Below, piece after piece: positions 43,141-54,255 of a stretch of 64,000 nt of DNA (position 1 is the first letter of the stretch; every line of letters starts with the position of its first letter). The notes beneath the pieces are model-generated. The model did not search any database. It was not told the DNA's origin and saw only the letters and a list, made by a program, of their open reading frames with translations. Location of the stretch: the NCBI RefSeq assembly GCF_017743735.1, contig NZ_JAGHRO010000005.1, positions 124,001 through 188,000 of the forward strand, in the 5' to 3' direction. Source of the stretch: Shimia sp. R9_2. Its GTDB lineage: Bacteria > Pseudomonadota > Alphaproteobacteria > Rhodobacterales > Rhodobacteraceae. The translations under genes and the position numbers were made by a program.

Positions 43141-43665
43141 ATGTGGGTATTTGGATATGGGTCCCTTTTGTGGAACCCCGGTTTTGAGGTCGCCGAACAG
43201 GCGGTGGCGCGGCTTGACGGCTGGCACCGCAGCTTCTGCATGCGCTCCATCCACCATCGCGGCACGGTTGAGCACCCCGGTTTGGTGTTGGCATTGGACG
43301 CCGAAGTGGGCGCGCATTGTCAGGGGCTGGCGCTGAAGGTGGCAGAGGGCCATGAGGCGCGCACGCTTGAGTATCTGCGCGAGCGGGAGCTGATCAGCTC
43401 GGCCTATCTGGAGCGAAACCTGCCGTTGACGCTGACCGATGGGCGCGTGGTGGAGGCGGTGACCTATGTGATCGACCCCGAACATGTGCAGTATTGCCAC
43501 CTGCCGCTGGCGGAGCAGGCGGCGATCATTTCCACGGCTGTGGGCGGGCGCGGGCCGAACACTGAATATCTGCACAACACCGCCAATCACCTGTTTGAGC
43601 TGGGCATTGAAGATGCGGATTTGGCCTGGTTGTCCCGCGAAGTAAGCAGAATGACCACAGCCTGA
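43141..43665 (+). CDS. Gamma-glutamylcyclotransferase (ChaC-like)
   Basis: A 174-residue enzyme that releases 5-oxoproline from gamma-glutamyl peptides, probably glutathione. The substrate loop is VFGYGSLLWNPGF at the N-terminus, and the catalytic glutamate is in YLRERE (about residue 82). AGAGGCAGC stands before ATG 43141. It stands alone. Confidence 0.9.
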   Translation: MWVFGYGSLLWNPGFEVAEQAVARLDGWHRSFCMRSIHHRGTVEHPGLVLALDAEVGAHCQGLALKVAEGHEARTLEYLRERELISSAYLERNLPLTLTDGRVVEAVTYVIDPEHVQYCHLPLAEQAAIISTAVGGRGPNTEYLHNTANHLFELGIEDADLAWLSREVSRMTTA

Positions 43666-43769
43666 GACCAGCGCGGGGCGGGGGCTGGAAATACCTTGGC
43701 ACATGAAGGACATGCCAGTAGGGTGAGCGCTGAATAACGCAGAATAAACAAGTGTCAGGATCCGTCCTC

Positions 43770-45008
43770 ATGGATCAGCCGGACCGCAAAGTCGAGCCGC
43801 ATTTCTCTAAGCCAACGCGCCAGATTTTCCTGATGGTGAGCGTTTTGGGAATGACCGGGGCTTTGGGCTATTTTGCCCTGCCGCGTGTCTTGCCTGTGTT
43901 TCAGGCAAACCCCTATCTGAACGGCTTTATCATCTTTGTCTTTTTGATCGGCGTGGCCGCGACCTTTGGTCAGGTGCTGTCGCTGATTTCCTCGGTGCGC
44001 TGGATCGAGGGGTTTGCGGGGCTGCGCGACGGCTATGACGCGCACAATCCGCCGACGTTGCTGGCACCGCTGGCGAGCCTGCTGAGGGAACGCGGGGCGC
44101 ATGGGCAGATCGCTTCTTCCTCTGCACGCTCCATTCTGGATTCGGTGGCCACCCGCGTGGATGAGGGGCGGGAAATCACCCGATACCTCGTCAATATGCT
44201 GATTTTCCTTGGCCTTTTGGGCACCTTCTACGGGCTTGCGACCACCGTGCCTGCGGTGGTGGACACGATCCGCAGCCTTGATGTGGGCGGTGGCGAAGGC
44301 GGTGTTGAGGTGTTCTCGCGTCTGATGACGGGGCTGGAAAGCCAGCTTGGTGGTATGGGCGTGGCCTTTGCTTCCTCGTTGCTGGGGCTTGCGGGCTCGC
44401 TGATTGTGGGCCTGCTGGAGCTGTTTGCCGGTCATGGCCAGAACCGGTTTTATCGCGAACTCGAAGAATGGCTGAGCTCGATCACGCGGGTGGGTTTTGC
44501 CACCAGCGATGGTGAAGGCGGCGATATTCAGGTGCTGGGGGCGGCGTTTGAGCATATGTCGGGCCAGCTTGATCAGCTGCGCGAAACCATGATCGAAACC
44601 GCTCAGATGCGCGGGCAGAACAGCGGCCAGATGGGCGAGCTGATCGAGGCGGTGAACCGGATGGCGGACCGCGTGGACACGCAAACGCCTGTGACCCAGG
44701 CATTGTTGCGGCTGGCGGAAGGGCAGGAAGCGCTGCTGGCCAAGATGGGCGAGGGGACTGTCGGGGACGGTGGCATTGATGCGGAAAGCCGGATGCGGCT
44801 GCGCTCGATCGATGTGCAGATGCTGCGCATTCTGGAAGAGATCTCCGCCGGGCGTCAGGAAAGCATGGCGGAGCTGCGCACCGAGCTGAGCGGGATTTCC
44901 CGTGTGCTGCGGCGGCTGGCCAAGGCGCAGGAAGCGGAAAACGCCGCGCCCAACACCAAGGTGCAGCTCAAGCGCTCGCCAATCTCAAAAGGTGGGCAGG
45001 AGGGCTAA
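43770..45008 (+). CDS. MotA/TolQ/ExbB-type proton-channel subunit with long cytoplasmic tail
   Basis: A 412-residue inner membrane protein. Two N-terminal helices (FLMVSVLGMTGALGYFALP, FIIFVFLIGVAATFGQVLSL), a cytoplasmic loop, then two helices that fit the MotA/ExbB family: LVNMLIFLGLLGTFYGLATT and MGVAFASSLLGLAGSLIVGL. A tail of about 180 residues with coiled-coil character follows. ATG 43770 has AGGA 10 bases upstream; GTG 43752 is an alternative. It ends 3 bases before the MotB-like partner gene. The two probably form a proton-driven motor complex. There are no flagellar or Ton genes nearby. Confidence 0.85.
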   Translation: MDQPDRKVEPHFSKPTRQIFLMVSVLGMTGALGYFALPRVLPVFQANPYLNGFIIFVFLIGVAATFGQVLSLISSVRWIEGFAGLRDGYDAHNPPTLLAPLASLLRERGAHGQIASSSARSILDSVATRVDEGREITRYLVNMLIFLGLLGTFYGLATTVPAVVDTIRSLDVGGGEGGVEVFSRLMTGLESQLGGMGVAFASSLLGLAGSLIVGLLELFAGHGQNRFYRELEEWLSSITRVGFATSDGEGGDIQVLGAAFEHMSGQLDQLRETMIETAQMRGQNSGQMGELIEAVNRMADRVDTQTPVTQALLRLAEGQEALLAKMGEGTVGDGGIDAESRMRLRSIDVQMLRILEEISAGRQESMAELRTELSGISRVLRRLAKAQEAENAAPNTKVQLKRSPISKGGQEG

Positions 45009-45011
45009 GCC

Positions 45012-47249
45012 ATGGCCCTCTCGCGGCGCACAGGACAACGGTTTCAAGGCTCGATCTGGCCCGGTTTCGTGGATGCGATGACCGGGCTTTTGCTGGTGCT
45101 GATGTTTGTGCTGACGATTTTCATGATCGTGCAGTTTGTGCTGAGCGAGACCATCACCGGACAGGAAAGCGAGCTTGATGCGCTACAGGGCGAAGTTGCG
45201 GCGCTGGCCGATGCGCTGGGGCTGGAGCGGACGCGCACGCGCGATCTGGAAGGTGAGCTGAGCGGTTTGACGGCAACGTTGACGGATCGGGACAGCCAGC
45301 TGCGCGAACAGGAAGCGCTGATCGCGGCTTTGACGGCAACACGGGATGCCCAAGGCGCAGCGCTGGAACGTGCGCGGGCGCAGATCACAAGCTTTGAGGC
45401 GCAGGTGGCGACACTGCTGGCGCAACGCGATGACGCACAGGCCAATGTGGCCGCGCTGGAAGTGGCACGCGATGCGCTGATTGATGAACGCGCGGCGCTC
45501 AATCTGGCGCTGGCGGCGGCGCGGGATGAAATTGATGCCGGTGCAGAGGCTGCCCGTCTGGTGGCCGCAGAAGCGGAGGCAATGGAAGCGCTGATTGCGA
45601 GCCTGCGCGAAGATGTGGCCGAAGGGCAGCTGCAGATTGATGAGCTGGGCGCGGAGGCGGATCAGTTGGACCGCGCGCTCACCGAGCAGGAACAGCAGCG
45701 CTTGCTTGAGGCAGCGGCGGCGGAAGAGCTGCGCAAGCGTTTGGAAAACGCCGATGCGGAGCTGACCGCCATGACTTTGGCGCTGGAAGAGCAGCGCAAA
45801 GAGGCTGAGGACACGCTGACGCTCTTGGCAGCGGCGGAGGCTGCGCGGGATGATCTGGACCTGAAACTGGCGGCGGCGCTGGTCGAAGGGCAGGACGTTG
45901 GCTCTGATCTGGCGGAGGCCGCGCTGCAGCTGGCCACGCTTCAGACGGAGCTGGACACACGCGATGGTCAGCTGGCTTCGGTGAAGGCGGAATTGGCAGC
46001 GACATTGCTGGGGTTGGAGGAGAACCGGCGCACCGTGAATGATTTGCAGGCGCAGCTGGTGCAGGAAGTGGCCGCGCGCGCCACAGCAGAGGCGCAGGTT
46101 TCTGAACGCTCTGACGATCTGGCGACGCTTGGGGCCCAATTGGCCGAGGCGCTGGCCGCAAAACTGGCAGCGGAAACCGAAGGCGCTGCCTCTGCTGCAC
46201 AGGTGGACGGGCTGACCGCGCGGGTTGCCACGCTTGAAGATCAACTGGCAGCGGCGGTGGCCGCGCAGGTGCAGGCGCAGGACAGCGGCAATGACCTGCG
46301 CGAGCGGCTTGCGGCGGCTCTGGCGGCGAAGCTTTCCGCAGAGCAGCAGTTGCGCGACGGTGGCGATGTGCAACAGGCCCTTGCCGCAGCACTGGCGGCC
46401 CAGCGGGCGGCGGAAGCGGCGCAGGCCGATGCGTTAAGCGAGGCGGAACGCCGGGACGTGTTGCTGTCAGAGGCCAACAAGGCACTGTCAGAAGAAGAGG
46501 CCAGATCGGCGGAGAGTCAGCGCCAGATCGCGGTGCTCAATCAGCAGATTGCCGCGCTGCGCGCGCAGTTGGGATCGCTGCAGGGCATTCTGGATGAATA
46601 TGCAGAGCGGGATGCGGCGGCGCAGGTCCAGCTTGAGGCGCTTGGCTCTGATCTCAACGCGGCTCTGGCGCGGGCTGCCGCAGAGGAACGCAGACGGCGG
46701 CAGCTGGAAGAGGCGGAGCGCAAGCGGCTGGAAGATGAGAAGCTGGCGCTTGAGGCCGAAGCTGCTGCGCTGGCGGCGGAGACGCGGGATCTGGCGCAGT
46801 ATCGCTCTGAGTTCTTTGGGCGTTTGCGCAATGTGCTTGGCGCGCAGGAAGGGGTGCAGATTGTCGGTGACCGCTTTGTGTTCTCCTCAGAAGTGCTGTT
46901 CCCGCCGGGTGGTGCGCAGCTGTCACCGGAAGGACAGAGTGAGGTCGCAAAGGTCGCGGGCATTCTGCAGGGTGTGGTGGATGACATTCCAGCTGAGATC
47001 AACTGGATCCTGCGGGTGGATGGCCACACCGATGATGTGCCGATTTCAGGTGGCGTTTTTGCCGATAACTGGGAGCTGAGCCAAGCACGGGCGCTGTCTG
47101 TGGTGCGCTATCTGATTGATGTGCTGGGCCTGCCGCCCACGCGCCTGTCTGCCAATGGCTTTGGCCAGTATCAGCCGGTGGATCCGGCAGACTCCGAGGA
47201 GGCGCGGGCGCGCAACCGGCGGATCGAGCTGAAATTCACCGAGAAATAA
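45012..47249 (+). CDS. MotB-like protein with very long periplasmic coiled coil and OmpA domain
   Basis: A 745-residue protein. The single N-terminal helix starts GFVDAMTGLLLVLMFVLTIF, with Asp21 at the position of the proton-accepting aspartate of MotB (ADFMTAMM). Residues about 45-600 are an Ala/Glu/Leu/Gln-rich coiled coil with many repeated heptads. The C-terminal 140 residues form a peptidoglycan-binding OmpA domain (VDGHTDDVPISGG, NWELSQARALSVVRYL, RARNRRIELKF). The layout is a stator-type anchor with a periplasmic rod that could reach about 80 nm if fully helical, far more than MotB; such a rod would more likely fold back. Its role is unknown. Confidence 0.88.
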   Translation: MALSRRTGQRFQGSIWPGFVDAMTGLLLVLMFVLTIFMIVQFVLSETITGQESELDALQGEVAALADALGLERTRTRDLEGELSGLTATLTDRDSQLREQEALIAALTATRDAQGAALERARAQITSFEAQVATLLAQRDDAQANVAALEVARDALIDERAALNLALAAARDEIDAGAEAARLVAAEAEAMEALIASLREDVAEGQLQIDELGAEADQLDRALTEQEQQRLLEAAAAEELRKRLENADAELTAMTLALEEQRKEAEDTLTLLAAAEAARDDLDLKLAAALVEGQDVGSDLAEAALQLATLQTELDTRDGQLASVKAELAATLLGLEENRRTVNDLQAQLVQEVAARATAEAQVSERSDDLATLGAQLAEALAAKLAAETEGAASAAQVDGLTARVATLEDQLAAAVAAQVQAQDSGNDLRERLAAALAAKLSAEQQLRDGGDVQQALAAALAAQRAAEAAQADALSEAERRDVLLSEANKALSEEEARSAESQRQIAVLNQQIAALRAQLGSLQGILDEYAERDAAAQVQLEALGSDLNAALARAAAEERRRRQLEEAERKRLEDEKLALEAEAAALAAETRDLAQYRSEFFGRLRNVLGAQEGVQIVGDRFVFSSEVLFPPGGAQLSPEGQSEVAKVAGILQGVVDDIPAEINWILRVDGHTDDVPISGGVFADNWELSQARALSVVRYLIDVLGLPPTRLSANGFGQYQPVDPADSEEARARNRRIELKFTEK

Positions 47250-47306: not shown

Positions 47307-48269
47307 TCATTCTATCGTCAGGATCGTCGTTGACTGATCCAGAATGGCACCGTCTCGCTTGAGAAGAACCTCACCTGTGTAGGCGCCTTTGGGCCAGCCG
47401 CCCTGCGGTGTGCGGCGCCCGCCAGCGCGGAAATACTGTGCCTGCGCGCGGTCCAGCAGCATGGTCTGCGTGTAGACAGCGCCTTGCGGGCCATTGATCG
47501 TAAAGGACATCTGATCGCCCGGACGGCTGCCAAAAGCGTGCCCAAACAGCACCAGCGCCTTGGCCTGCGCAGGGATGCGCTCGCGCCCGGCCATGCCGTC
47601 TTTCACCCGGTCATATTCCGGAATGCCAACCTCAAATCCGATGCGGATCAAACCGCCCGCCACATAGGAAATAGGCTCTGCCCAAAGAGAGCTGTGTGCG
47701 CCGCCGCAGGTGCCGAGGGTGTCGGCTGAGAAGGGATCAACCACCTGATCATTGTGGCGCACAGAGATGTGCAGATGCGGAAACTGCGTGCGCCCGGAGA
47801 GGCCGATCTCGCCCAAGGGCTGGCCGCGTTTGACCTGATCTCCGGTCGCGACGCTGACGGTGTTGCGCTTCATATGGCAATATTGGGTGACCCAGCCGTC
47901 GCCGTGGTCAATCGCGACCCCATTGCCGCAGTCGCGCCCGTTGAGTTTCGGAATGTCTTCGGTGCGGATGATCTGATCGCGCATGCCGTCGCGCGCACCC
48001 AGAACCACGCCGCCCGCAGCGGCAAGCACATTGACCCCCTCAGCCATGGCCTTGGAGGTGGGCAGGGCAAAATCCGTGCCTTTGTGCCCGTCATAAGACA
48101 GCCCGCCGCAGGTGTGATCCTGTGTGCCGTCCGAGCTGTCCTGATCGACATAGTTCTGAATGAAGCAGGTTTCGCCCAGCTCACAGTCGACAGGCAGCGA
48201 AAACAATGGCGCGCCCGCAGCGGGGAAAGCTGCGAGCGCGCCAAGAAGTGCGATGCCTGTGAGGCGCAT
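47307..48269 (-). CDS. M23-family metallopeptidase (LytM-like)
   Basis: A 320-residue secreted protein with a signal peptide (LTGIALLGALAAFPAAG). The zinc motif HKGTDFA (H-x3-D) near residue 62 and HLHI near 170 are intact, and DGWVTQYCHMKR lies between, so it is probably an active peptidoglycan endopeptidase or a regulator of amidases. The start overlaps the clpA stop by one base (TGATG), so it is translated with clpA. A weak hairpin between it and the MotB-like gene may terminate both. Confidence 0.9.
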   Translation of the reverse strand: MRLTGIALLGALAAFPAAGAPLFSLPVDCELGETCFIQNYVDQDSSDGTQDHTCGGLSYDGHKGTDFALPTSKAMAEGVNVLAAAGGVVLGARDGMRDQIIRTEDIPKLNGRDCGNGVAIDHGDGWVTQYCHMKRNTVSVATGDQVKRGQPLGEIGLSGRTQFPHLHISVRHNDQVVDPFSADTLGTCGGAHSSLWAEPISYVAGGLIRIGFEVGIPEYDRVKDGMAGRERIPAQAKALVLFGHAFGSRPGDQMSFTINGPQGAVYTQTMLLDRAQAQYFRAGGRRTPQGGWPKGAYTGEVLLKRDGAILDQSTTILTIE

Positions 48270-52437: not shown

Positions 52438-52684
52438 GGTCTGCTGACATTCACCGCGCACCCCCGGTTTGAGACCCAAATCCACCAGCGCAAGGCATTT
52501 TGGTGATGTAAAGGTGGCCCCTTTTCGAACCAAAATAACGCGGCGATGGTGGATTTTGGCCAAATCCCACAGAGACGCGGCGAATTTTACCCATTGCGTC
52601 GTAATTTTTCCCTCGAGATCAACCAGATCAGAGCGGTCAAAATGCCTCGCGCCGGAGTGCGCGCTGAATGTCAACAGACCCTAG
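52434..52684. mobile_element. MITE-like element of about 243 bases with inverted ends and CTAG flanks
   Basis: The left end GGTCTGCTGACATTCACCGC (52438 on) and the reversed right end GGTCTGTTGACATTCAGCGC (from 52680) agree at 22 of the first 24 positions, and a further shared CGC(A/G)AGGCATTTTG lies about 50 bases in from the left end and 30 from the right. Both ends are flanked by CTAG (52434-52437 and 52681-52684), a likely target duplication. There is no open frame of note inside. It is a non-autonomous element of unassigned family. Confidence 0.78.
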
Positions 52685-54255
52685 GCCACATTGCGCAGGA
52701 TGGTGATGCGCGGATCGTCATCGGCGATGCCGACACCGCTTTCAAAGTCTTCTTCAAGTAGTTTGAGCACGGCCACATCGCCCACGTAGATTTCGGAATA
52801 GGCCACTTCAAAGCCATTGCCGTAGGTGTGGTTGACGATGTCGACCTCACCCTGAAGCTCGGGCGGGATGTTGATCGTCAGATGATTGCCCGTGAGGGTG
52901 CGCAGGACTGCGGGGCCCTGATCAAAGGCATCGGGCATCACGTTGAGCACCAGCGTGTCCTCGCCCGCGTTGCCATCCACATAGTGGCCAAGGCCAAAGG
53001 TGATGTGGTCATCCCCATCCCCGCCAAAGAGCGCGGTGTCGTTGTTTTTGACCAGATCAGCGGTGATCACATCGTCGCCTTCACCGCCAAAGAGGTGCAC
53101 TGGTCCGTCGCTAGCCTCGGTCACGGTGATTGTGTCATCGCCTTCACCGCCGTGTGCCAAGTGGCTGCCGCCCACAAGTGTCAGCGTATCGTTGCCTTCT
53201 TTCAGCGCGATCAGGCTGTTTTCCTCGGCGGTCAGAGTGTCATCGGAGGCGGTGCCGGCCAGATGGTTGAGGGCAAACATGCGATGGGCGCTGGCACCAT
53301 TGGTCTCGTCTTTGAAATAGCCGCTGTCGGGGTCAAAGACGCTGGTGAGCTCCACATCCTCGGCAGAGAAATCGGTGACGCCTTCAAGCCGCACAGTGCG
53401 GGTTTCGACATTGTCGGGGTTCAGCGGGTTTTGCCAGCTGATGTGCACATCCGTAAAGGCTCCATCCGGATCTGTGGTGGTGGTGATTTCCGGCGTCGGG
53501 ATCTGCGCGAGATCGGGCATATTGGCGCTGGCGCCGATATCGACCAGAAGCATGTCCTCTTCGGTGTCAAAATCGGTGATCCGCGCCACGATGAGCTCTT
53601 TGCTGTCCTCGCCATCGCGAATAGCCGTAGCAGCGTCCACATCCAATGCGTAGACATCGGCACCGGCACCGCCGGTCAGCACATGGGCAAGCGTGTCTTC
53701 CGGGAAGCCGGACAGGGGCCGCATCAGGAAGGTGTCGTCGCCGTCGCCGCCATCGGCGTGGGCTGCATCGCCCTCTGCCGACTGGGAGGCCTTAAGAAAG
53801 AAGGTGTCATCCCCGTCGCCGCCATAGCCGTGGGCGGCCTGAGAGATATGCATATAGTCTTCGCCGTCCCCGCCAAAGCCCTGCACAGAGCCGCCGATCT
53901 TTAAGGCGTCGTTGCCGTCTTCGCCGTGAATTTCGCCTGAGCCCCAGGAGATCAAGGTGTCCTCGCCGTCGCCCGCCATAATGTTGTCGCTCCCGCGGGC
54001 AATCAGGCTGTCGCCGTCATCGGTGCCCATGATCGCGTCTTCGAAAGCCGGGGCGGCTGTATCAGGCTCGGTGGGCGTGTCACCGGAGCTGTTGGGAGTT
54101 TCTTCAATCAGGTTGGAGGAGGTGTCCTCATCGGGCTGATCACCCTTTTCTGGCGGAGTGGTCCCATCTTGGTCGTCGTTTGAAGACCCCATCACATCCA
54201 CAACGGCGGTTGCTGCGCCGATGCCCAGCAGAGAGAGAATTACAAGCGGTCCCAT
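52681..54255 (-). CDS. RTX-type calcium-binding protein with N-terminal membrane segment
   Basis: A 524-residue acidic protein. A hydrophobic N-terminus (MGPLVILSLLGIGAATAVV) without an obvious cleavage site is followed by an Asp/Ser/Thr-rich linker, then several blocks of RTX-type repeats (GGDGEDYMHIS, GYGGDGDDTFFL, HADGGDGDDTFLM, LVGGSHLAHGGEGDDTITV, LFGGEGDDVITAD, LFGGDGDDHITFG). These nonapeptides bind calcium in beta rolls outside the cell. Its TAG stop falls in the right CTAG flank of the MITE-like element. No type I secretion genes are next to it. Confidence 0.85.
   Translation of the reverse strand: MGPLVILSLLGIGAATAVVDVMGSSNDDQDGTTPPEKGDQPDEDTSSNLIEETPNSSGDTPTEPDTAAPAFEDAIMGTDDGDSLIARGSDNIMAGDGEDTLISWGSGEIHGEDGNDALKIGGSVQGFGGDGEDYMHISQAAHGYGGDGDDTFFLKASQSAEGDAAHADGGDGDDTFLMRPLSGFPEDTLAHVLTGGAGADVYALDVDAATAIRDGEDSKELIVARITDFDTEEDMLLVDIGASANMPDLAQIPTPEITTTTDPDGAFTDVHISWQNPLNPDNVETRTVRLEGVTDFSAEDVELTSVFDPDSGYFKDETNGASAHRMFALNHLAGTASDDTLTAEENSLIALKEGNDTLTLVGGSHLAHGGEGDDTITVTEASDGPVHLFGGEGDDVITADLVKNNDTALFGGDGDDHITFGLGHYVDGNAGEDTLVLNVMPDAFDQGPAVLRTLTGNHLTINIPPELQGEVDIVNHTYGNGFEVAYSEIYVGDVAVLKLLEEDFESGVGIADDDPRITILRNVA

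Follow-up and report, generated by a model that had tools for sequence, protein, structure and literature searches.

A 64,000-nucleotide stretch of DNA from Shimia sp. R9_2 (contig NZ_JAGHRO010000005.1, positions 124,001 to 188,000; referred to as the window) carried a gene for a MotA-like membrane protein followed immediately by a gene for a MotB-like protein. The analysis presented here suggested that this pair is likely to be an ion-driven motor in the envelope. Our leading interpretation, to which we give slightly less than an even chance, was that the pair is a housekeeping envelope ion motor that is widespread in Alphaproteobacteria, is sister to the ZorAB motors of Zorya, and exerts force on peptidoglycan during growth or division. 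The observations behind it were the fold of the MotA-like subunit, invariant pore residues, a clade of its own, the regular pairing of the two genes, their spread in the class, and a coiled coil whose length came in whole heptads.

The gene pair and its two subunits

The sequence-only reading of this region had described a four-helix MotA-like protein with a cytoplasmic tail and, 3 bases further on, a MotB-like protein with the channel residue Asp21, a coiled coil of about 550 residues, and an OmpA domain. Our analysis bore out both parts of this description, and the features are given below. Invariance counts refer to a 60-locus sample, which consisted of the window and 59 other loci (these came from various families and were mostly long-contig loci with a strong match). 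Residue numbers of the MotA-like protein refer to the 418-amino-acid version that starts at 43752 and are 6 lower in the ATG version.

43770..45008, + strand: MotA/TolQ/ZorA-fold subunit, 412 amino acids from the ATG at 43770 (418 amino acids from the GTG at 43752), from open reading frames, AlphaFold2 helices, and fold matches
44223..44225, + strand: Thr158 (418-amino-acid numbering), polar ring of the pore by alignment, invariant in 60/60 (family alignment)
44376..44378, + strand: Ser209, second polar residue of the pore, invariant in 60/60 (family alignment)
44484..44945, + strand: cytoplasmic helical C-terminal tail of the MotA-like protein, residues 245-398 (AlphaFold2 and family comparison)
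45012..47249, + strand: MotB-type subunit, 745 amino acids, NCBIfam PRK09039.1-1 (open reading frame and NCBIfam score)
45072..45074, + strand: Asp21, channel aspartate, invariant in 59/59 (family alignment)
45147..46838, + strand: periplasmic coiled coil, approximately residues 46-609, heptad-periodic and Pro-free within 49-590 (periodicity and AlphaFold2)
46854..47243, + strand: OmpA-type peptidoglycan-binding domain with motifs GDRF, GHTD, and NWELSQARA (Pfam, alignments, and model)

The MotA-like gene had two start options; the ATG at 43770 had AGGA 9 bases upstream, and the GTG at 43752 had no obvious ribosome site. Its stop codon occupied 45006-45008. The MotB-like ATG was located 3 bases past this stop, and Asp21 lay within WPGFVDAMTG, at the start of the sole membrane helix of the protein.

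In the AlphaFold2 model of the MotA-like protein, whose predicted local distance difference test score (pLDDT) was 80.8 overall and mostly 50-80 in the tail, helices spanned residues 22-50, 54-90, 122-175, and 184-244, and the helical tail extended to residue 398. The tail was variable across the family and almost missing at one locus (L122). The Pfam MotA_ExbB model barely recognized the protein (0.015, under its cutoff), which may explain why the pair had appeared to be an orphan. The best Foldseek match had an E value of 4.9e-3 and a probability of 1.00. In the VIA fold comparison, TolQ, ExbB, and ZorA tied as the best matches (Z of 11.5 to 10.9, with 182-193 residues aligned), and flagellar MotA chains scored lower (9.5 and below, down to 8.1). 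When solved structures were searched with the MotA-like sequence, no motor chain was matched; a profile search also yielded no motor chain among the best 60 of its 98 matches, in which the tail matched coiled coils.

The two putative pore residues and the channel aspartate were invariant throughout the family sample. Position 209 was Ser in 12/12 ZorA1 and 5/5 ZorA3 rows and Thr in 31/31 TolQ/ExbB and 11/11 MotA rows, and position 158 was Ala, not Thr, in all 11 flagellar MotA rows. Residue 204, which is Val in the window and Thr in 53/60 loci, was also considered as the pore threonine and was dropped because alignment to TolQ/ExbB/MotA gave Ser209. In its published structures, ZorAB is a 5:2 complex in which such Ser/Thr residues surround the ZorB aspartate, D24 or D21 (PMC11890865). 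By analogy with ZorAB, we expect the pair to form an ion-driven A5B2 motor, and its fold, pore residues, and channel aspartate supported membership in the 5:2 ion-motor superfamily.

The MotB-like protein scored 782.9 bits against NCBIfam PRK09039.1-1 (NF006542), well above the curated cutoff of 388, and thus belonged to this family. The PRK09039 entries (NF006542-NF006546) are called "peptidoglycan -binding protein," a name that carries no function. The OmpA domain of the protein was recognized by Pfam (4e-18 and 66 bits, with a gathering cutoff of 27.2), and Asp674 and Arg693 of this domain, which we take from OmpA structures to be wall-binding site residues, were invariant in 32/32 aligned rows. 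Given the OmpA domain, the cell wall is a likely target of the pair. The AlphaFold2 model of the MotB-like protein was of modest quality (pLDDT of 69.0 and predicted template modeling score of 0.31, with pLDDT below 50 at residues 188-203, 318-338, and 535-549). It was helical at residues 17-609, with short breaks at 326-328 and 449-453, and placed the OmpA domain at 615-744.

Between residues 49 and 590, the coil of the window's protein had zero prolines, 26% Ala, 16% Leu, and a hydrophobic period of 3.50 residues. Coil spacing, defined as the distance from the channel aspartate to the GDRF motif, was measured in 79 proteins, of which 59 came from the sample and the other 20 were further members from the window's taxonomic family. 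The spacings ranged from 171 to 898 residues; 44 of the 79 were multiples of seven, and the remainder was 0, 3, or 4 in 69. When only distinct spacings were counted, 28 of 57 were multiples of seven (p of 4e-10; the rows are mutually related, and this and the other p values for spacing are indicative). Moduli of 3, 4, 5, 6, 8, 9, and 11 gave an even spread in the 79 proteins, with a lowest p of 0.08. The last stretch before the OmpA domain was 35, 56, 63, or 70 residues long in 77 of 78 proteins, and the length of the whole MotB-like protein was a multiple of seven in 10/79. Two variable linkers that served as controls were flat for modulo 7, namely the Pro-rich linker of an upstream gene that we refer to as gene X (n = 34, p of 0.97) and the MotA-like tail (n = 56, p of 0.87). 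A fixed span of the MotA-like protein (77 residues in 34/51, a multiple of seven) was discarded as a control, since it was invariable. The heptad effect was weaker within the window's taxonomic family alone (10/25, p of 0.013).

Because whole-heptad spacing was found across widely varying lengths, it seemed that the rod was strongly constrained in register and not in length. A coiled coil rises 0.15 nm per residue; if straight, the rods would be about 25 to 130 nm long, and that of the window would be about 90 nm long. The shortest rods would roughly span the periplasm, and the longest, including that of the window, could not cross it straight and would have to run alongside the wall or double back. 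The rod fits a shaft or cable that passes on twist or pull better than it fits a ruler. The longest MotB-like protein that was found had 1046 amino acids (L312:10004-13141).

Placement among known motors

A maximum-likelihood tree with ultrafast bootstrap support was built from 91 proteins, including 27 family members, and 250 alignment columns. The MotA-like family formed its own clade (support of 99), which was joined by an unnamed, non-monophyletic group (L130-L134; supports of 96, 81, and 78), then by five ZorA3 rows (94), and then by 12 ZorA1 rows (100). TolQ/ExbB (93) and MotA (100) were separate groups, and ZorA1 and ZorA3 had supports of 98 and 100, respectively. The A subunit was located beside, not inside, the ZorA clades. 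Of the five ZorA3 rows, the two that were scanned scored 815 and 1113 bits against PADLOC ZorA3. The approximately unbiased (AU) test, which used constrained trees from a fast search and 5000 resamplings (flagged by the program as too few), rejected a grouping of the family with MotA (p of 0.0004) or with TolQ/ExbB (p of 0.0047). Profile comparison of the family gave 98.6% for ZorA3, 97.2% for ZorA1, 92.7% for TolQ/ExbB, and 24% for MotA. The alignment lay in the twilight zone. The sequence-only reading had named placement inside a known clade of defined function among the results that would speak against it; this was not what we found, because the family lay outside the MotA, TolQ/ExbB, and ZorA groups.

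Thus, the nearest named kin of the family is ZorA, and the family is a distinct clade of a known kind of motor. Zorya ZorAB (types I and II and PADLOC type III) and the family have in common the Thr/Ser pore ring, the channel aspartate, the OmpA-type domain, and a C-terminal tail on the A subunit. In contrast to Zorya, the family has a separate clade, a class-wide spread, an extra N-terminal helix relative to the aligned ZorA structures, and a long coil on the B subunit, in the periplasm. In addition, the window's A subunit (P0001) scored 33.9 bits against ZorA1, whereas the two ZorA3 proteins scored 815-1113 bits against their own model. Zorya effectors (ZorC/ZorD, ZorE, and the like) were not recognized by eye or in nine Pfam-scanned neighbors, a survey that did not include a PADLOC scan. 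TolQR/ExbBD resemble the family in the three-helix core fold, the GLLGT motif, and the pore threonine, but the grouping was rejected, and the family has four helices and a B subunit with an OmpA domain and a long coil. Flagellar MotAB resemble the family in having four helices, a channel aspartate, and an OmpA-type B subunit, but here too the grouping was rejected, MotA rows have Ala at position 158, and a separate flagellar-type MotA gene is present in the same genome.

Other ZorA-like pairs were also observed. The L130-L134 loci represented a further ZorA-like/MotB-like set, close to the family, in which the MotB-like gene was upstream or downstream of the A gene. Another set (L126:8806-11612, L127, L128, L129, and L135) combined a long-tailed A subunit (675-958 amino acids) with a MotB of 214-225 amino acids. 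Two A subunits of this set scored 815-1113 bits against PADLOC Zorya III ZorA, one B subunit scored 376 against ZorB3, and PRK09040 was also matched. Weak profile matches of this type recurred across several families of the phylum, and 27 records in the plasmid collection matched, one of the six shown being annotated DUF802. These pairs may be housekeeping, not defense, systems.

Distribution and gene neighborhood

A profile of 60 relatives detected MotA-like family members in 190 of the 279 genomes of Alphaproteobacteria searched, and the window's MotA-like sequence alone matched 200 of 289 genomes of the class, 8 of the 200 with two matches. The sequence-only reading had called the pair an orphan. 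This was true of its neighborhood in the window but not of the pair overall, which represents a widespread, largely single-copy, class-wide family. The MotB-like gene directly followed the MotA-like gene on the same strand in 59 of the 60 sampled loci (gap of -32 to 74 bases), and pairing of this kind is therefore not due to chance. It also adjoined the MotA-like gene in 76 of the 80 best named loci, which were from Hyphomicrobiales where titles tell. In a sample of 397 genomes from the phylum, seven genomes outside Alphaproteobacteria had strong matches (E of <1e-90), and MotB adjoined in all four that were fetched. A tblastn search with the window's MotA-like sequence found no match in 50,697 phage records and five matches in plasmid records, all of them in rhizobial replicons of 3.5-4.6 Mb.

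Twelve reduced genomes (0.7-1.5 Mb) were chosen because they match the MotA-like protein. The MotB-like gene was adjacent in 4 and elsewhere in the genome in 8; since it was present in all 12, it seemed that the partnership of the two genes outlasts a split of their operon. All 12 genomes had TolQ with TolR, and nine had no PF01618 protein besides TolQ and the family member. In reduced genomes of one family (f87; L275, L276, and L278), the MotA-like gene was followed immediately by a gene that reads as prfA, and MotB was elsewhere.

No flagellar, Ton, Tol, or Zorya genes were seen in the 36-56 kb region of the window, in which open reading frames were inspected by eye and nine proteins were scanned with Pfam; this was as the sequence-only reading had stated. 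The same survey detected no TolA, TonB, or Pal genes near the pair. Elsewhere in the window's genome, we named by eye a ybgC-tolQ-tolR-tolA cluster, a heme-type hmuV-exbB-exbD-tonB cluster, and a flagellar motA. Outside the window's taxonomic family, the usual order was tkt, gapA, pgk, thiE, efp, suhB, X, motA, and motB, sometimes with zapA further upstream, and with an ATP-binding cassette (ABC) exporter on the opposite strand behind motB. Neighbor counts are lower bounds due to crude gene calling, and tkt, gapA, pgk, efp, and the exporter were named by eye.

In 24 loci of the window's taxonomic family, the neighbors were ChaC (23), DUF2125 (22), ClpA (17), an extensin-like wall protein (16), and an M23 peptidase (10); some of these stretches were short, and the counts are lower bounds. 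The M23 peptidase and ClpA, which the sequence-only reading had put forward as neighbors to be checked for conservation, did not prove to be conserved generally: neither was among the clusters common to at least six of the 60 class-wide loci. The two genes flanking the pair in the window were as follows.

43141..43665, + strand: ChaC-like gamma-glutamylcyclotransferase, a lineage-specific neighbor outside the motor (in 23/24 loci of the window's taxonomic family)
47307..48269, - strand: M23 peptidase, a convergent and not general neighbor (at 10/24 loci of the window's taxonomic family)

A 524-amino-acid protein with DGDD/GGDG repeats, which look calcium binding, was encoded at 52681-54255 on the - strand of the window and had no Pfam match at 1e-3.

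Gene X reads as an exported, Pro-rich, OmpA-like protein that lacks the GHTD motif; in the three proteins scanned, the OmpA-like domain ended at profile position 81-82 of 98. It was located no more than 2 kb upstream of the pair in 48 of the 60 sampled loci. A search for gene X elsewhere in the window's genome yielded four profile matches, which by eye were OmpA-type proteins of a different make-up. We considered whether loss of gene X is linked to a longer coil, as the longest MotB proteins of the 60 loci were in loci that lack gene X. This idea was rejected based on the Hyphomicrobiales loci: MotB proteins at 76 named loci had 328-416 amino acids, and gene X was present at only 1 of 80.

In Sinorhizobium meliloti Ak57, the order was thiE-sel1-suhB-motA-motB-ABC exporter-rpmE, which placed a Sel1 gene two genes upstream of the pair. 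This Sel1 protein may be RgsF (SMc03995), as judged from its description and from locus numbering, and we treat this identity as a lead. Sel1 homologs were found in 38 of the 80 named loci (3-kb flank only) and in 4 of the 60 sampled loci. RgsF is described as an essential factor of polar growth, a periplasmic Sel1/tetratricopeptide repeat protein; like TolQ and TolR, it was pulled down with RgsA, and it localizes to the growing pole and septum (PMC7327166 and PMC5929573). The words MotA, OmpA, and ExbB were absent from the main text of PMC7327166, which left the RgsF/Sel1 lead as the only link to the Rgs network. One record with the S. meliloti pSymB label (L338; CP090106.1, 3076331-3095101; 3.72 Mb) holds rpmE, purE, and an inositol monophosphatase gene, and this label looks doubtful.

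Possible roles of the pair

Candidates for published relatives were found in Brucella and Komagataeibacter. Brucella abortus BAB1_1725 is said, from signature-tagged mutagenesis attributed to Tian 2019, to be important for virulence (PMC9491525). BAB1_1725/1726 and B. melitensis BMEI0325/0324 are adjacent "MotA/MotB" genes on chromosome I, and the flagellar loci are on chromosome II (PMC7410920 and PMC9491525). Komagataeibacter hansenii, which is said to be flagella free, has adjacent motA and motB genes (348 and 321 amino acids); like the family, this pair has four predicted transmembrane helices and an OmpA-type B subunit. Overexpression of motA or motB in K. hansenii yielded longer, chained cells and colonies that spread more, and green fluorescent protein fusions were polar (PMC6570709). 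In the open-licence PMC literature, we did not find the family named as a motor of its own, and a 2025 survey that covered MotAB and its relatives left ZorAB out of its tree (PMC12505986). The Rhodobacter sphaeroides "OmpA family protein" RSP_1033, which co-precipitated with DalA (PMC10470522), could not be mapped to the MotB-like protein.

We infer the stoichiometry, ion, rotation, place, and purpose of the motor as follows. Five MotA-like subunits would surround two MotB-like helices, and protons passing Asp21 and the Thr158/Ser209 ring would turn one part against the other. Beyond the membrane, the MotB-like dimer may continue as a single unbroken coiled coil, locked in phase, whose terminal OmpA domains would hold peptidoglycan, so that the motor could pull, twist, or scan the wall. 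In many lineages, the gene just upstream (gene X) encodes a putative periplasmic partner whose OmpA domain is degenerate. The setting is probably envelope growth and division, at the pole and septum. Four observations, not one of which is decisive, make a role in growth or division at sites of wall synthesis our best guess: the wall-binding end, the presence of the pair together with Tol, the RgsF lead, and the Komagataeibacter phenotype. The sequence-only reading had proposed a further motor acting on the wall or outer membrane; the superfamily and the wall as a likely target stood, but the motor was not a lone one, as it belongs to a class-wide family near ZorA. A bolder version, which we find possible but rather doubtful, is that a second widespread envelope motor beside Tol-Pal, driven by ions, reels a phase-locked coiled rod of tens of nanometers along the peptidoglycan of growth zones, or against it, and shares an envelope-surveying ancestor with Zorya.

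Several observations weigh against the interpretation of the pair as a housekeeping envelope motor. The fold alone would not decide the matter, because Foldseek with the MotA-like model gave zero matches at an E of ≤0.001 and because an unrelated designed helix bundle had a Z of 9.8 in the VIA comparison, higher than that of MotA. Only 4 of the 12 rows counted as ZorA1 passed the curated ZorA_1 cutoff, the rest being weaker matches to ZorA models, and seam upkeep in any coiled coil would give the same heptad signal. The pair seemed to be dispensable in some lineages, small genomes included, because 89 of the 279 genomes of the class had no MotA-like match; at least six genomes of 1.0-1.4 Mb were among 20 of these 89 that were listed, and one non-matching genome (G010, family f11) carried four other PF01618 proteins. 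Retention in small genomes, which we had considered as proof of a core role, was weakened by these at least six genomes and by the preselection of the 12 reduced genomes. The neighboring genes were mostly metabolic, and gene X, which was found in 0/5 loci of the window's taxonomic family and 1/80 Hyphomicrobiales loci, is not a universal partner. The effect in Komagataeibacter came from overexpression and was absent in Escherichia coli (PMC6570709), and in B. ovis, BOV_1655, which is reported as the MotA of chromosome I, carries a frameshift, and BOV_1656 carries an in-frame deletion (PMC7410920). As judged from text, adjacency, size, and annotation, the genes of Komagataeibacter and Brucella are probable family members.

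The affinity to ZorA also bears on a different idea, that the pair is a Zorya-like sensor motor in which the wall-bound MotB-like protein senses damage to the envelope, from phage entry or wall stress, and the MotA-like protein signals it through its cytoplasmic tail. ZorA is the nearest named clade, ZorB3 was the best PADLOC match of the MotB-like protein (1.2e-25), and Zorya depends on both the wall domain of ZorB and the tail of ZorA (PMC11890865). We consider such a sensor unlikely: no effector gene was seen in the surveyed part of the window, the family is spread across the class, unlike a defense island, with no phage matches and no ordinary plasmid matches, and the tail is almost missing in L122. 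The highly variable coil length (171-898 residues) and the invariant OmpA motifs would fit a passive wall tether, that is, a structural rod from inner membrane to wall with a channel that no longer conducts. The invariance of the pore Thr and Ser (60/60) and Asp (59/59) and the retention of MotB in all 12 reduced genomes having MotA, split operons included, make a tether quite unlikely.

It is similarly hard to favor a Tol/Ton-like energizer whose action would push gene X, or another periplasmic partner, toward the outer membrane. The position of gene X upstream of the pair in 48/60 sampled loci and the TolQ/ExbB-like fold of the transmembrane core are consistent with it, but gene X was not found in 5/5 loci of the window's taxonomic family and 79/80 Hyphomicrobiales loci, no TolA/TonB-like gene was seen beside the pair, and the AU test rejected the TolQ/ExbB grouping; we regard this energizer as distinctly improbable. 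Annotation in Brucella and Komagataeibacter, together with COG1360, points to an alternative or accessory flagellar stator (PMC7410920, PMC9491525, and PMC6570709). This explanation is already contradicted and very improbable, as the family lies outside the flagellar MotA clade (AU p of 0.0004), a separate flagellar-type MotA is present in the same genome, TolQ and the family member were the only PF01618 proteins found in 9 of the 12 reduced genomes that have the pair, and Komagataeibacter is reported to be flagella free (PMC6570709).

The interpretation that we favor, a housekeeping envelope motor related to ZorAB, would have several implications. In the common view, Tol is the chief energy-transducing motor when the Gram-negative envelope grows. 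If the interpretation is true, this Tol-centered view would change: some reduced alphaproteobacterial genomes would retain, alongside Tol, a second motor that the labels "peptidoglycan -binding protein" and "flagellar MotB" have concealed. Such a motor would also explain "flagellar" matches in nonflagellated bacteria and would give Zorya a housekeeping cousin in which their common mechanism can be studied. The heptad-quantized coil provides a directly testable rule for force transfer across the periplasm.

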